Assembly: GCF_013393385.1 (NCBI RefSeq)
Contig: NZ_AP023239.1
Coordinates: 2,356,001 to 2,420,000 of the forward strand
Direction: 5' to 3'
DNA: 64,000 nucleotides
Source of the DNA: Paenibacillus sp. URB8-2
GTDB lineage: Bacteria; Bacillota; Bacilli; Paenibacillales; Paenibacillaceae
Shown here piece by piece: positions 34,199 to 64,000 of this stretch. Position 1 is the first letter of the stretch. Each line of letters starts with the position of its first letter. The notes under the pieces are model-generated. The model worked only from the letters and a program-made list of their open reading frames with translations. It did not search any database and was not told the DNA's origin. The translations under genes were made by a program, and so were the position numbers.

Positions 34199-34204
34199 AA
34201 GGCT

Positions 34205-34396
34205 AAATCCTGCGATGTACGTTATCGGCTGCTCGTTGTTTTGAACCAATGATAATGTCTTGGGAGATCTATATGAAGCGCAGCTGAAAGGCCCTGTCTA
34301 TATGACATGGGGACTTCAAAAACGCAACTGCGGTCACCCACCTGCTATTGCAGGTTCAGAAGACACTGTAGCCGGACGGCATAGGCGGGTTTTTCC
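34205..34396 (+). ncRNA. ssrS: Probable 6S RNA
   Basis: A transcript of about 190 bases with no credible coding frame. It shows the features of Firmicute 6S RNA: a GGCTGC..TTTTGAACCAATGATAATG 5' side of the central region and an apical hairpin CCCTGTC/GACATGGG. A 3'-side hairpin ACCTGC-TATT-GCAGGT and complementary ends (AAATCC near the 5' end, GGGTTT near the 3' end) complete it. 6S RNA binds sigma-A RNA polymerase by imitating an open promoter. Identification is from recalled consensus and length, not a covariance search. Confidence 0.7.
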
Positions 34397-43483: not shown

Positions 43484-45103
43484 TCAATGATTGACTAGCC
43501 CGCACTGGCCAAGATCCAGCAGATCGGTTGTCTCCGGTGACATTTGACCCAGCAGGGCGTAGCGCATACTGTCGACCAGCGCTTCCCAGCTTGCCTCGAT
43601 GATGTTGGCGGATACGCCGACTGTGCTCCAGGTGTCCGTGTAATTTTTAGATTCGATAAGAACCCGAACCTTCGCGGCGGTCTGATCCTTTTCGTCGAGA
43701 ACCCGCACCTTGTAATCGGACAGATGCATTTCCTTGAGCTGCGGGAAGTGGGCCAGAAGCGCCTTGCGAAGCGCATTGTCGAGAGCGTTGACAGGACCGT
43801 TGCCTTCTCCGGCGGTATACAGCGTTTCGTTTCCTACTTTCAGCTTGACGAATGCTTCCGAGACAACAGGTTTTCCAGCGGATTTCTCAACAAGCATTTT
43901 GAATGACTCGAAGGTGAACAGCTCGTTCATTTCGCCCGTCGCTTCACGAAGCAGCAGTTCCAGCGAAGCGTCGGCGCCTTCGAACTGGTAGCCTTGATGC
44001 TCCAGATCCTTGATCTTGTCGATTACTTTCCGCGCCTGCTCGCTGCTTGGGTCGAGATTCAGGCCCATCTCCTGAGCCTTGGACAGCACATTGCTCTGAC
44101 CGGCCAGTTCGGAGACAAGCACGCGCTGCTTGTTGCCAACCAGTTCGGGAGAAATATGCTCATACGTGCGGGAATCGCGCAGGATGGCCGAGACGTGAAT
44201 ACCGCCTTTATGCGCAAACGCCGCGCTTCCCACATAAGGCTGGTTCACCGGCATGTTGACGTTAGCGACCTCACTCACGTAACGGGCCGTATTCGTTAGC
44301 TGCGGCAGAGAATCGCCTGGGATGCAATTGTAACCCATCTTGAGCTGCAGCGTCGGGATGATGGAACAGAGGTTGGCGTTCCCGCAGCGTTCGCCATACC
44401 CGTTGATCGTTCCCTGCACCTGGCGGGCACCAGCCTCAATTGCGCTGAGCGCGTTGGCTACGGCAAGCTCGCAGTCGTTGTGGGTATGGATACCCAGCGG
44501 CGCTCCGGGGAGCCTAAGGCCCAAAGAGGAGACGATGTCCCGGATCTCATGCGGTAGCGTTCCACCGTTCGTATCGCACATAACGAGCCAATCCGCCCCG
44601 GCTTCGCGAGCCCGCGACATAACCGCGGCGGCGTAATCGGGATTATTCTTGTATCCGTCGAAGAAGTGCTCGGCGTCGAAAATGACTTCAAGCCCTTTGC
44701 TTTTTAAATAAGCGATGGAATCGCCGATCATGGCGAGATTTTCCTCAAGGGTAGTTTGCAGCGCAGTATGCACGTGGAAATCCCATGATTTGCCGACAAG
44801 CGTGGCCGCGGGTACGCCTGCAGCCAGTATACGCTGAAGATTATCGTCTTGATCCGCTTGGGAGTTTTTGCGGCGCGTACTGCCGAATGCGGTAATTTTG
44901 GCGTGCAAATGAAGATCTTTTACTCTTTTGAAAAATTCAATATCCTTCATATTGCTTCCAGGAATGCCACCTTCAATATAGTGCACACCCAGATCGTCGA
45001 GTTTCTTGGCGATTTTCAGCTTGTCGTCCGCCGACAGACTGATACCTTCGCCTTGGGTGCCGTCGCGCAGCGTTGTATCGAAGATGGAGATGGACTTTGG
45101 CAT
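43484..45103 (-). CDS. cimA: Citramalate synthase
   Basis: A 539-residue DRE-TIM acyltransferase of the LeuA/CimA family. The N-terminal barrel has IFDTTLRDGTQGEGISL and the metal ligands in HTHNDCELAVANAL; the C-terminal 200 residues form the LeuA-type regulatory/dimer domain. It condenses acetyl-CoA with pyruvate to citramalate, the first step of a threonine-independent isoleucine route. The size and GEGISL motif fit TIGR00977-type enzymes. ATG 45103 follows AGGAGG. Two tandem leader elements precede it. Confidence 0.9.
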   Translation of the reverse strand: MPKSISIFDTTLRDGTQGEGISLSADDKLKIAKKLDDLGVHYIEGGIPGSNMKDIEFFKRVKDLHLHAKITAFGSTRRKNSQADQDDNLQRILAAGVPAATLVGKSWDFHVHTALQTTLEENLAMIGDSIAYLKSKGLEVIFDAEHFFDGYKNNPDYAAAVMSRAREAGADWLVMCDTNGGTLPHEIRDIVSSLGLRLPGAPLGIHTHNDCELAVANALSAIEAGARQVQGTINGYGERCGNANLCSIIPTLQLKMGYNCIPGDSLPQLTNTARYVSEVANVNMPVNQPYVGSAAFAHKGGIHVSAILRDSRTYEHISPELVGNKQRVLVSELAGQSNVLSKAQEMGLNLDPSSEQARKVIDKIKDLEHQGYQFEGADASLELLLREATGEMNELFTFESFKMLVEKSAGKPVVSEAFVKLKVGNETLYTAGEGNGPVNALDNALRKALLAHFPQLKEMHLSDYKVRVLDEKDQTAAKVRVLIESKNYTDTWSTVGVSANIIEASWEALVDSMRYALLGQMSPETTDLLDLGQCGLVNH

Positions 45104-45119
45104 GTGCGTCCTCCTAAAA

Positions 45120-45180
45120 GTTTTGATAGCATAGTCTACTTGAGCCGCTTCGCAAAACTGGCATCGGAAGCGTGAACTTA
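45120..45180 (-). repeat. Leader element copy B (proximal, cimA)
   Basis: A 61-base unit read on the minus strand. It starts TAAGTTCACGCTTCCGATGC, then AGTTTTGC, a 24-base centre with TATGCT, and ends CAAAAC just before TTTTAGGAGG. The AGTTTTG/CAAAACT arms can pair. It is about 93 percent identical to the next unit upstream. Confidence 0.85.
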
Positions 45181-45242
45181 GTTTTGATAGCATAGTCTAC
45201 TTGAGCCCGCTTCGCAAAACTGGCTTCGAAAGCGTGAACTTA
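45181..45242 (-). repeat. Leader element copy A (distal, cimA)
   Basis: A 62-base tandem copy of the unit at 45120-45180, differing at only a few bases and one single-base insertion in the centre. The same AGTTTTG/CAAAACT arms are kept. It lies within the leader predicted from the promoter at 45261-45288. Confidence 0.85.
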
Positions 45243-45260
45243 GCGGGAATGAATTTTTAT

Positions 45261-45288
45261 ATTATAGCATTTTTGCGCGGGAATGTAA
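45261..45288 (-). promoter_or_regulatory. Sigma-A promoter of cimA
   Basis: On the minus strand, TTACAT (-35) and TATAAT (-10) with a 16-base spacer. Transcription from about 45254 gives a leader of 150 bases containing both repeat copies. Confidence 0.55.
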
Positions 45289-45488
45289 CAGAGAACCTAC
45301 ACAATTATAATACATTTCCAGCGAAAAAAGAGCGGGAAATTCCGGCGGGGTACGCTTAAGGGCGCGGTCAGCTAAAGCGTCTCGTCCATTGGCTCTCCGG
45401 ATTGACCTGCTGAGCGGGGAGCGTTATGCTAAAAATCAGGTGGGGAATAGGCGCATCAGCAGTATTAGATGAAGGAAGAGGGACGAGC

Positions 45489-46784
45489 ATGAGCGAAAAT
45501 GTGGACCGGTATTATCCCGCAATCGGCCGGGTCATTTTGCATGTGGATATGAATGCGTTCTACTGCTCCGTCCATGAGGCGGAGAATCCGGAAGCTTATA
45601 GAGGCAGACCGACCGCCGTAGCCGGAAGCATGGAGCTTCGCAAAGGAATTATCGTCACCTGCTCGTATCCGGCAAGACGGCGGGGCATATCGACAGGCAT
45701 GCAGGTGCAGAAAGCCTTGAGGATATGCCCCGAGCTGATTGTCATTAAACCCGATTTTCATCTCTACCGACGCTATTCCGCCGCATTCATGCAAATCGCC
45801 TACAACTATACGCCGATGCTGGAGGCGGTATCCATCGACGAGTGCTACCTCGATATAACCGGATCGCGCCAGTTCGGCACACCGCCGGAGATCGCCGAGA
45901 CGATCCAGCGCAGAATTATGGAGGAACTTGGACTGCCATGTTCAATCGGAATCGCGCCCAACAAGCTGCTGGCCAAGATGGCCTCGGATCTCAAGAAGCC
46001 GAGCGGCATTTCGATTCTAAGGCTGAGGGATGTGCCGAAACTGCTGTGGAACAAGCCGTGCGGCGAGATGTTCGGGATCGGCGGCAAGACGGCGGAGAAG
46101 CTGACGAAGCTGGGTATCTACAGCATCGGACAGCTGGCTGCAGCGGATGAAGGGATGCTGACGGACGTCTTTGGCGTTATGGGTTCCTGGCTCAAACGCG
46201 CTTCGAACGGCATCGACGACTCTCTCGTAAATCCGGAGCGTGAGCAGAGCAAGTCGATTGGACACACGACGACGCTTCCCGGCGACATCGAAGGGCTTGC
46301 CGAAGCGCGGCCGGTTCTGCTCGCCTTAAGCGACCAGGTGGCAAGAAGGCTGCGGCGGCAGAAGCTTGTTGCAAGCGGCGTTCAGCTTACCGTGCGAACA
46401 CCGGATATGAAGACCATCACCCGCTCGAGGCAGCTGGAAGTTCCGACCGAGACGGCAGAGGAAATATATAAAGCGGCCTGCGGGCTGTTCCAAAAGCATT
46501 GGAACGAGGAGAAGCCAATCCGGCTGCTCGGAGTGACGCTGCACGGCTTGACTCCGAAGGAGGAGTCCGCCATTCAGCTTGATCTGTTCGATTACGAGCG
46601 ACAGCCGAAAAAGGAATCGCTGAACAAGGTGATGGATATGCTGCGCAACAAATTCGGCGAGAATGCTGTGCTGACGGCCGGGATGCTGGGCGACTCGCAT
46701 ACCGCTCTGCTGCGGAACCATCAGGCGCGCGGAACCTCGCTGCAAAAGGATCAGCTGCGGCGGCCGTCTCAGAATGAAGAGTGA
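45489..46784 (+). CDS. dinB: DNA polymerase IV (Y family)
   Basis: A 431-residue translesion polymerase. Palm residues appear in HVDMNAFYCSVHE and SIDECYLDITGS; the thumb (GIGGKTAEKL) and little-finger domain follow. A beta-clamp-binding motif QLDLF is at about residues 363-367, and a basic C-terminal tail follows. It is closest to B. subtilis PolY1/YqjH. Start ATG 45489 is behind AGGAAGAGGGA; an upstream frame to 45426 lacks a good site. No LexA box (CGAACN4GTTCG) was found upstream. Confidence 0.93.
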   Translation: MSENVDRYYPAIGRVILHVDMNAFYCSVHEAENPEAYRGRPTAVAGSMELRKGIIVTCSYPARRRGISTGMQVQKALRICPELIVIKPDFHLYRRYSAAFMQIAYNYTPMLEAVSIDECYLDITGSRQFGTPPEIAETIQRRIMEELGLPCSIGIAPNKLLAKMASDLKKPSGISILRLRDVPKLLWNKPCGEMFGIGGKTAEKLTKLGIYSIGQLAAADEGMLTDVFGVMGSWLKRASNGIDDSLVNPEREQSKSIGHTTTLPGDIEGLAEARPVLLALSDQVARRLRRQKLVASGVQLTVRTPDMKTITRSRQLEVPTETAEEIYKAACGLFQKHWNEEKPIRLLGVTLHGLTPKEESAIQLDLFDYERQPKKESLNKVMDMLRNKFGENAVLTAGMLGDSHTALLRNHQARGTSLQKDQLRRPSQNEE

Positions 46785-62400: not shown

Positions 62401-62829
62401 ATCGGCCGGACGAGGCGCATTTACGAGCGCGAGAAGCAGCCGCAGGTTCTGACCCTGGCTTCCTCGTACTTCGAGAGGTTGACTGAAGGGGAATATCGGC
62501 GGGTCGTGATGACTTTGGGGAAGAAAGAACTGAAAGCCGAGCACCGGAAGACGGGGCTGCTGGACAGCGGATTGCTGAGCCGGGGAACGGCAGAGCAGCT
62601 ATATCTGTCCCTGCGGCTGGCGCTTGCGGGAACGATGGACCGTCAGGACCCGCTGCCTTTGCTATTCGACGATCTGTTCGTCAATTTCGATGAGAGACGT
62701 CTGCATGCGGCGCTTTCTCTGCTTGGCAATCTGTCGTCTTCACGCCAGGTCGTTATGCTGACCTGCCACAGGCATGTAGCGGAAGCCGCCGCCAGACTGG
62801 TGCCTGAGGCCTCCGTTATTTCCGTGTAG
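59499..62829 (+). pseudogene. YhaN/SbcC-like AAA ATPase with a +1 frameshift
   Basis: The N-terminal ATPase half starts at ATG 59499 (AAGGAGG upstream) with LYGPNEAGKST (residues 29-38). It continues in frame to about 60670, where the coding moves one base forward at TTTT (60669-60672) and runs to 62829. The second part holds a coiled-coil arm, two membrane helices (TAWPLLALAAALTALLPAAL and the next) as in B. subtilis YhaN, and the C-terminal LSRGTAEQLYLSLRLAL signature with Walker B LPLLFDDLFVNFDE. Joined, it is about 1109 residues, against about 960 for YhaN. The shift may be a mutation, a sequencing error or programmed. Confidence 0.8.
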
Positions 62830-63925
62830 ACCGTGGAACCGATTTGGGGGAGGGGATTGTTGTCGATTTTGTAAAGGCGATTGCTTTGCCTGGCGGAACC
62901 ATGGGTGTAAGGATCAATCTGACCGCCCAGACAAGCGACAACGCGCCGAACATGGGATAGAACAGCCCCAGCAGCGAGCTGAAACCGAATTGGCTGAAGA
63001 CATAGCAGGTCAGCATCACCAAGGCGGTAATGACGGAGTGTGAGATCGGCAGGCGCTGCGCCAGTTGAAGCGTGACGCCGTAAATGTCAGCCACAAAGGT
63101 GCTGAAAATTTCCAGAAAGATCAGCAGCAGATACACAAGCTGAACCAGCGTTCCGAGCCGGAAGGCGATGCTGCCCATCGGAATCTCGAACTGGAGGATG
63201 CCCGGCATGTGCGCGCTCATCGCAAAATGAGCCGCCATCAGCATAAAACCGATGCCCAGACCGCCGATAATACCGCCGAAGGCAAGTGTCCGATCGTTCT
63301 TGGTATGACGCGCCATAGGGACGAGGACGGCCTGCGCCATACCCAGATTGAACGCCGTATACAGAAAAGGCGACAGCCAGGCCGCAATTGCGCTGCGTTC
63401 AGTAACAAGCGACATGAAGCGGTGCGCCTCCGGATGTTCAAGCGTGTTGAAAATGATGATGAGCGAAAGAGTCAGCATCAGGGGAACGACAACGCTGTTC
63501 ATCTGCATAATGCCGGTAATGCCCCGTTTCAGCAGAAGATAAGAGCCGACCAATGTCACCAGTAGCCCGGTTTGATAATGAAGTCCGAGATGCTCCTCAA
63601 AAATGGCTCCCGCACCCGCCAGCATAATGCTGTTGACTCCGATCAGGATGAGCAGCGTGAACAGGCTGATAATGGCACCCGTGCTTTTTCCGAACAGGTG
63701 GCGGTTGAAATCTTCATACGATTCGGCCCCGATCCGGCGGGCGAGAATCATCATTTTGGTGCCGAGCCAGATGAAGACCCCTGTGGAGAGGATAATGGTC
63801 AATGCAGCCCAGCGGCCATACTGCGTGAAGAACTGGAGAATTTCCTGGCCGGTGGCGAACCCGGCTCCCACTATGGTGCCTATATAAGTAAAGGCGATTT
63901 GCAGCGTGCGGAGCGTCTGTCTCAT
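62816..63925 (-). CDS. YkvI-family membrane transporter-like protein
   Basis: A 369-residue protein with about ten membrane segments. The opening FTYIGTIVGAGFATGQEILQF is the YkvI signature, related to the amino-acid/polyamine and GerAB-type transporters. B. subtilis YkvI is uncharacterised. ATG 63925 follows AGGAGG, whose leader contains the repeat element seen before cimA. Its C-terminal codons overlap the convergent ATPase gene by 14 bases. Confidence 0.88.
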   Translation of the reverse strand: MRQTLRTLQIAFTYIGTIVGAGFATGQEILQFFTQYGRWAALTIILSTGVFIWLGTKMMILARRIGAESYEDFNRHLFGKSTGAIISLFTLLILIGVNSIMLAGAGAIFEEHLGLHYQTGLLVTLVGSYLLLKRGITGIMQMNSVVVPLMLTLSLIIIFNTLEHPEAHRFMSLVTERSAIAAWLSPFLYTAFNLGMAQAVLVPMARHTKNDRTLAFGGIIGGLGIGFMLMAAHFAMSAHMPGILQFEIPMGSIAFRLGTLVQLVYLLLIFLEIFSTFVADIYGVTLQLAQRLPISHSVITALVMLTCYVFSQFGFSSLLGLFYPMFGALSLVWAVRLILTPMVPPGKAIAFTKSTTIPSPKSVPRSTRK

Positions 63926-63950
63926 GGCTCTCCTCCTAAAAGTTTTGCAA

Positions 63951-64000
63951 GCATAAACCGCGTTGATCATTCTTCGGCAAAACTGGCATCGAAAGCGTGT
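63951..64000 (-). repeat. Leader element copy C (before the ykvI-like gene)
   Basis: Read on the minus strand: ACGCTTTCGATGCCAGTTTTGC, a centre ending TATGCT, then GCAAAAC followed by TTTTAGGAGG. It is the same element as before cimA with the arms and both flanks kept and the centre changed; it runs off the window edge. Confidence 0.8.

Follow-up and report, generated by a model that had tools for sequence, protein, structure and literature searches.

On the minus strand of the window, by which we mean the whole 64,000-nt stretch of DNA that was analysed, two units, each about 62 nt long, fill the leader of cimA downstream of a promoter-like site (Table 1). Both follow the same order, with the motif GCTTNCGANGC, then the arm AGTTTTG and, beyond a centre of some 27 nt, the arm CAAAACT, and the TATAAT of the promoter-like site keeps its position in most of the 30 cimA leaders compared. 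Two adjacent copies had been described at this place in an earlier reading made from the letters of the DNA (the sequence-only reading), and both are indeed present on the minus strand, the proximal one running into TTTTAGGAGG. The third copy that was placed before a ykvI-like membrane protein gene, named so in the same reading, is also real, but its position had been mis-described: the stem spans 63941-63984, and the unit is the last of a tandem pair that crosses the end of the window, the second copy lying just past it (genome 2420002-2420062). This unit is built as those of cimA and sits directly on the SD. Clear units were seen in 5 of the 30 ykvI-like leaders compared, and the product of the gene matched neither an NCBIfam model (1e-10) nor a Pfam model (1e-5). 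A 22-base core gave three matches in the window with up to three mismatches, against none in 100 shuffles.

Table 1. Features in the window, numbered from its first letter
Feature	Position	Strand	Details
Promoter-like site of cimA	45261..45289	-	GTTACA 45284-45289, 17 nt, TATAAT 45261-45266; TG before TATAAT
Distal cimA unit	45177..45235	-	motif GCTTTCGAAGC 45223-45233; 5' arm AGTTTTG 45215-45221; 3' arm CAAAACT 45180-45186; stem-to-stem span 45180-45221
SD-proximal cimA unit	45110..45173	-	motif GCTTCCGATGC 45161-45171; 5' arm AGTTTTG 45153-45159; 3' arm CAAAACT 45119-45125; stem-to-stem span 45119-45159
SD AGGAGG of cimA	45110..45115	-	6 nt ahead of ATG
cimA, citramalate synthase	43484..45103	-	ATG 45103-45101; TIGR00977, 769 bits, cut-off 450
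SD-proximal unit of the ykvI-like gene	63932..63998	-	motif GCTTTCGATGC 63986-63996; 5' arm AGTTTTG 63978-63984; 3' arm CAAAACT 63941-63947; SD AGGAGG 63932-63937
ykvI-like membrane protein gene	62816..63925	-	ATG 63925-63923
6S RNA	34204..34395	+	91 bits

Anatomy of the unit

One unit consists of the conserved motif AUGCUUNCGAAGC, possibly folded as a small hairpin, followed by a main hairpin. The stem of the latter has 7-9 bp, mostly A-U, with AGUUUUG/CAAAACU or compensated versions of it, and the loop belongs to one of two classes, about 3-9 nt or about 24-33 nt. Some 3 nt separate the last unit of an array from the SD of the gene that follows. Fully complementary 7-nt arms follow 87% of the 270 distinct strict motifs, compared to 9% with shuffled tails, in a set drawn from loci chosen for the element. 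The arms are dominated by AGTTTTG/CAAAACT or by that stem read one base off, and the pair counts of one regular expression that fixes most arm positions were not taken as proof. The earlier claim that these arms are kept while the centre differs holds between the loci of this genome; at the cimA orthologues of other species the arms are often imperfect. TATGCT was considered as a promoter and ruled out, as it is not conserved between loci.

The letters of the motif are conserved beyond pairing (G98 C99 T100 T100, then C98 G100), and CGAAG recurs inside the long loop at 81-97% per position. No convincing Watson-Crick covariation was found inside the long loop, which is weak evidence given the alignment slack at the arms.

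Copies in this genome and spread among genomes

Over the 5.58-Mb genome the arm pattern gave 28 rows at 24 distinct places, with 0 in the reversed control. A covariance model (R1) built from 16 SD-proximal units of this genome matched it 46 times at E up to 1, seeds included, and a motif pattern without the SD letters gave 35 matches (at most one mismatch) in 21 clusters; two-mismatch matches were left uncounted, as the reversed control also matched there (7 in all). Nineteen of the 21 clusters directly precede the SD and start codon of a gene, and the two exceptions are part of another dispersed repeat with a related core. Thus, the further copies at start codons for which the sequence-only reading had proposed to search were found. 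The element-bearing genes include galU, cdd, apt, sdhB, trxA, topA, a fabH-like gene and dnaK (topA and dnaK judged from partial pieces), genes for Coat F, YlbF, PfkB, tubulin-like, cupredoxin, hydrolase and FAD-oxidoreductase proteins and, by eye, rpmJ and atpG; they are functionally mixed, without a common pathway.

Across genomes, R1 at E 0.01 matched 43 of 60, namely every one of the 37 from the genus, this genome among them, and 6 of the 23 others. Order-wide, 113 of 198 genomes matched at E 1e-6; they fall into three families, of which one has a single genome with one match. In the phylum sample, where strict filters were used and few candidates were scored per genome, 4 of 299 matched at E 1e-4, all from the own family. 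Copy number within the genus ranges from 2 to 86 per genome (lower bounds). A pattern scan of named genomes gave at least 120 stretches, and 77 among the 80 listed are titled Paenibacillus. With a pattern that itself contains the SD, a start codon follows 4-12 nt on in 79 of the 81 SD-joined copies in those 80 loci; the remaining two are one without downstream sequence and one without a start in range. The suggestion that 5'-leader elements associated with ribosome-binding sites form a family is supported across the genus. Recurrent genes among the 80 loci included, by eye, serA (four), a trxB-like gene (three), and ylbF, hslU, prmA and bactofilin (two each).

The set of element-bearing genes is not constant. 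From 18 such genes recovered for this genome, 17 were common to genome G013, 10 to G033, 4 to G035 and none to G017, all lower bounds because 28 of 83 loci, which the expression did not fit, gave no protein; rpmJ, unrecovered for the own genome in this count, has units in G017 by eye. Sharing drops with distance, and the genes turn over between species.

An RNA helix at atpG

The atpA-atpG spacer was compared in the 30 best-scoring of 59 matching genomes, and all of these 30 leaders have the element in some form. A hairpin stands immediately before the SD in 29 of them, one of which (L386) has a degenerate motif, and the remaining leader (L385), with a motif-less hairpin further upstream, was left out of the alignment. 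In the 29 sequences the main helix of nine pairs is paired in 100% of cells, and four of the nine pairs show two-sided change. With the small hairpin counted in, the named structure as a whole pairs in 97.9% of cells, compared to 16-61% for slid versions of it. None of 500 shuffles reached the covariation score, the paired percentage or the two-sided counts, and 65 reached the number of pair types. Between the stem and AGGTGG every one of the 29 rows has a 3-nt linker, although its letters differ. The small hairpin GCUUNCGAAGC is paired in 93% of cells without two-sided change, and RNAalifold pairs GCU with an upstream AGC in its place. Among the 16 units of the own genome two pairs change on both sides, a number reached by 39 of 500 shuffles (the score by 6), and covariation from these units alone gives modest support. 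The stem is a selected RNA helix, and the compensatory changes at atpG support the RNA helix that the sequence-only reading had suggested, beside a DNA site, from the conservation of the arms. The letters of the atpG stem are of their own kind, mostly AGCTTTGRC/GYCAAAGCT, and the number of units differs between species.

Folding predictions for single sequences spoke against a stable hairpin. The mean predicted probability of the main helix was 0.34 in 54 long-loop units and 0.70 in 16 short-loop units, and when six units were folded singly, two had a z-score below -2 and four were not clearly more stable than shuffles. The SD had a mean unpaired probability of 0.41, against 0.36 with dinucleotide-shuffled upstream sequence, the native value being higher in 47 of 78 cases. 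According to these predictions the SD is not specially hidden and the effect on its accessibility is small.

Constraint, loss and arrays

The own genome was compared with two relatives in 17 and 10 orthologous leaders. The 5' and 3' arms diverged by 1.7 and 0.8% in one comparison and by 1.4 and 1.4% in the other, while divergence was 3.8 and 7.3% in the motif, 11.7 and 22.2% in the loop and 6.9 and 16.2% at third codon positions. A pair of leaders entered these figures only if the element was recognised on both sides, a choice that works in favour of conserved arms.

For cimA, leaders were compared in the best-scoring 30 genomes out of 60 with a match; automatic unit counts at cimA and atpG missed and mis-assigned units, and from that count only the cimA leader lengths were used. 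The distance from the -10 box to the ATG is 36-39 nt in seven leaders (no unit), 48-68 nt in three (remnants at most) and at least 99 nt in 20. In four of the seven unit-less leaders AAAAACTTTTAGGAGG is retained and looks like a scar left by loss, and the stem AGTTTTG/CAAAACT beside the SD is imperfect in 9 of the 20 unit-bearing ones. With 10 of 30 leaders lacking a full unit and these imperfect stems, the function of the element at cimA is therefore dispensable or weak. Gain and precise loss both fit the cimA and ykvI-like leaders with and without units, and the scars speak for loss.

The 65 arrays found by regular expression (lower bounds) hold one unit in 36 cases, two in 24, three in 4 and four in 1, and the largest array in the leaders compared, at atpG, has five. 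Neighbouring units have a median identity of 0.96 (35 pairs), units of different loci 0.75 (2080 pairs). Most of 40 single units carry upstream an AAAAC-like remnant of an earlier 3' arm, and arrays thus seem to shrink, with the SD-proximal unit persisting. As for traits of mobility, no transposase, defined ends or proven insertion was identified.

Discussion

The position, conservation and helix of the module are established, and we infer that the helix acts in cis on the mRNA. The reading that we prefer, with a probability of roughly 0.45, is a hairpin module next to the SD that serves as an insulator of the SD or as a stabiliser of the mRNA. The helix would fold beside the SD without covering it and would keep upstream sequence from pairing with it, and the structured 5' edge next to a bound ribosome could slow 5'-to-3' decay of the mRNA or of an operon segment. 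In this way the helix may set the expression level of the adjoining gene. Distal copies would be mostly products of tandem duplication, which may add to the effect. We do not place this reading higher because the folding predictions are weak. Further points against it are the small effect on SD accessibility, the imperfect stems and frequent loss of copies at cimA, and the modest covariation of the own-genome units. The cimA units sit between a promoter-like site and the SD, as would be expected for a 5' mRNA stabiliser with its hairpin near the transcript start and the SD, but operon-internal cases such as atpG do not fit a hairpin near the transcript start. The element lies between the T-box and serA in all three serA loci scanned and between a cobalamin riboswitch and metE, and as a T-box or riboswitch is already present, sensing is done elsewhere in these four leaders.

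The conserved sequence of the motif and of part of the loop is needless for a plain insulator and argues against it. These letters make a bound factor the strongest rival: the hairpin and the GCUUNCGAAGC motif could be a binding site for an RNA-binding protein or a small RNA, making up a post-transcriptional regulon that spans the lineage and takes in tens of housekeeping genes. We regard this as possible but unlikely. Motif letters kept beyond pairing, CGAAG in the long loop without Watson-Crick covariation and the likewise kept stem letters are what such a site would predict, whereas the genes share no pathway, the loops vary from about 3 to 33 nt and the number of copies differs as widely within one genus as given above. 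Taken further, and just as doubtful, the module could belong to an order-restricted post-transcriptional system in which a tandem-multiplied hairpin-plus-motif module, recognised by a factor, governs tens of unrelated genes in each genome at the level of translation or stability, with lineages gaining and losing modules beside the SD.

The near-identity inside arrays, the turnover of element-bearing genes between species, the repeated loss and decay at cimA with its scars, the remnants upstream of most single units and the second dispersed repeat with a related core would all suit a dispersed repeat that is functionless for most host genes, spreads through copying and tandem duplication, and stays wherever it does no harm. 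We consider this rather improbable, as it does not account for the strict SD adjacency, the compensated helix at atpG, the constrained arms (among pairs with both elements recognised) or the presence in some form in every atpG leader of the best 30 of 59.

An on/off switch was suggested by RNAalifold, which on the 16 own-genome units pairs CUUYC of the motif with GGAGG of the SD, as does the cimA unit folded alone; the SD would then be freed when the motif folds as GCUUNCGAAGC. This explanation was weakened by variation at the key base and by the accessibility of the SD, and we find it improbable. In 16% of units an A as the middle base breaks the pairing, the mean predicted SD-motif pairing is 0.16 in long-loop and 0.14 in short-loop units, the SD is no less accessible than with shuffled upstream sequence and is not paired above chance as in an SD-sequestering switch or RNA thermometer, and distal copies retain the motif without an adjoining SD. 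A transcription attenuator or DNA operator, to which a short T run after the hairpin and the odd palindrome of the motif in DNA could point, is very improbable, as a consensus scan for stems of at least three G-C pairs with a T run after them gave no terminator-like site in window 44900-45500 around the cimA leader or on the gene's strand at atpG, the base of the stem is A-U, elements lie inside the atpA-atpG spacer, and the compensatory changes point to RNA.

Compared to known systems, the element resembles the leaders in Rfam (T-box, riboswitches) as a structured RNA in the 5' leader, but it is a simple unit, has no shared gene pathway and coexists with a T-box or cobalamin riboswitch. None of the Rfam 15 covariance models overlaps an element, in the window at the gathering threshold, at 8 loci at E up to 1 or at 18 loci at the gathering threshold. 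FourU and ROSE are SD-sequestering thermometers or switches, which have a hairpin beside the SD and U-rich letters in common with the Paenibacillus element, in which the SD lies outside the conserved helix. Bacillus stabilisers of the aprE type are single leaders, whereas here one motif-bearing module is found in tandem, is spread over many genes and also stands inside operons. Judging from the part of the source used here, such stabilisers at the 5' end of Bacillus mRNAs, the leader of aprE and others like it (PMC3997798), are among the closest analogues.

The other is BOX of Streptococcus pneumoniae, which in the sections of the paper drawn on here (PMC3049150) is dispersed and transcribed, has a variable number of tandem inner modules and folds as RNA, and of which one copy lies between T-boxes. 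A variable number of tandem inner modules is found here as well. In contrast, the BOX described there has boxA and boxC ends around boxB; the Paenibacillus units are without such end modules, none being seen by eye in the leaders compared, where units stand head to tail beside promoter-side sequence and SD. In the same sections pneumococcal repeats are over-represented between convergent genes, whereas the Paenibacillus element lies right before the SD, with 19 of 21 clusters preceding a gene. As far as is known, and within what these two sources cover in the parts used, neither aprE-type stabilisers nor BOX have a tandem module that adjoins the SD strictly and does so at many genes. Searches of the openly available literature for the element, for Paenibacillus leader data and for analogues turned up no paper describing it (subscription papers and preprints lay outside). 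A study of Paenibacillus riograndensis leaders, as far as its portion used here goes, compared 209 long leaders with Rfam (PMC5670726), and could not name the element because the comparison relied on Rfam, which has no matching model.

The element may be an unrecognised way of setting the amount of protein per gene. It places a structured leader element before galU, topA, dnaK, atpG, serA and others in a large and much used genus. Because units at cimA number none, one, two or more between the same promoter and SD, its leaders form a natural series with which to ask how an SD-proximal hairpin alters expression, and the units might be used as genetic parts.

Some other repeated sequences were seen in this genome. 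The second dispersed repeat, about 100 nt long (genome 27217-27316, 3948849-3948950, 4022212-4022312, 4520830-4520926 and 4522566-4522669), has a related core, the motif with a hairpin of the AGTTTTCC/GGAAAACT type, flanked by CCTCCTAAATC-like and CCCCAAGGGC...GCCCTCTGGACACCCG-like sequence, and the SD-start arrangement was not seen at its five places. GCTTTCGCATCCAGTTTT, two mismatches off the motif pattern, recurs identically at six genome places (e.g. 1333486 and 3450534) and looks like a different multi-copy sequence. The spacer between 16S and 23S rRNA has, at genome 134800-136400 and 4987000-4988600, a short unit-like sequence made up of the motif and the hairpin AGCTTTGC/GCAAAGCT, the former spacer also containing 5S rRNA and two tRNAs in the order 16S-5S-tRNA-tRNA-23S.
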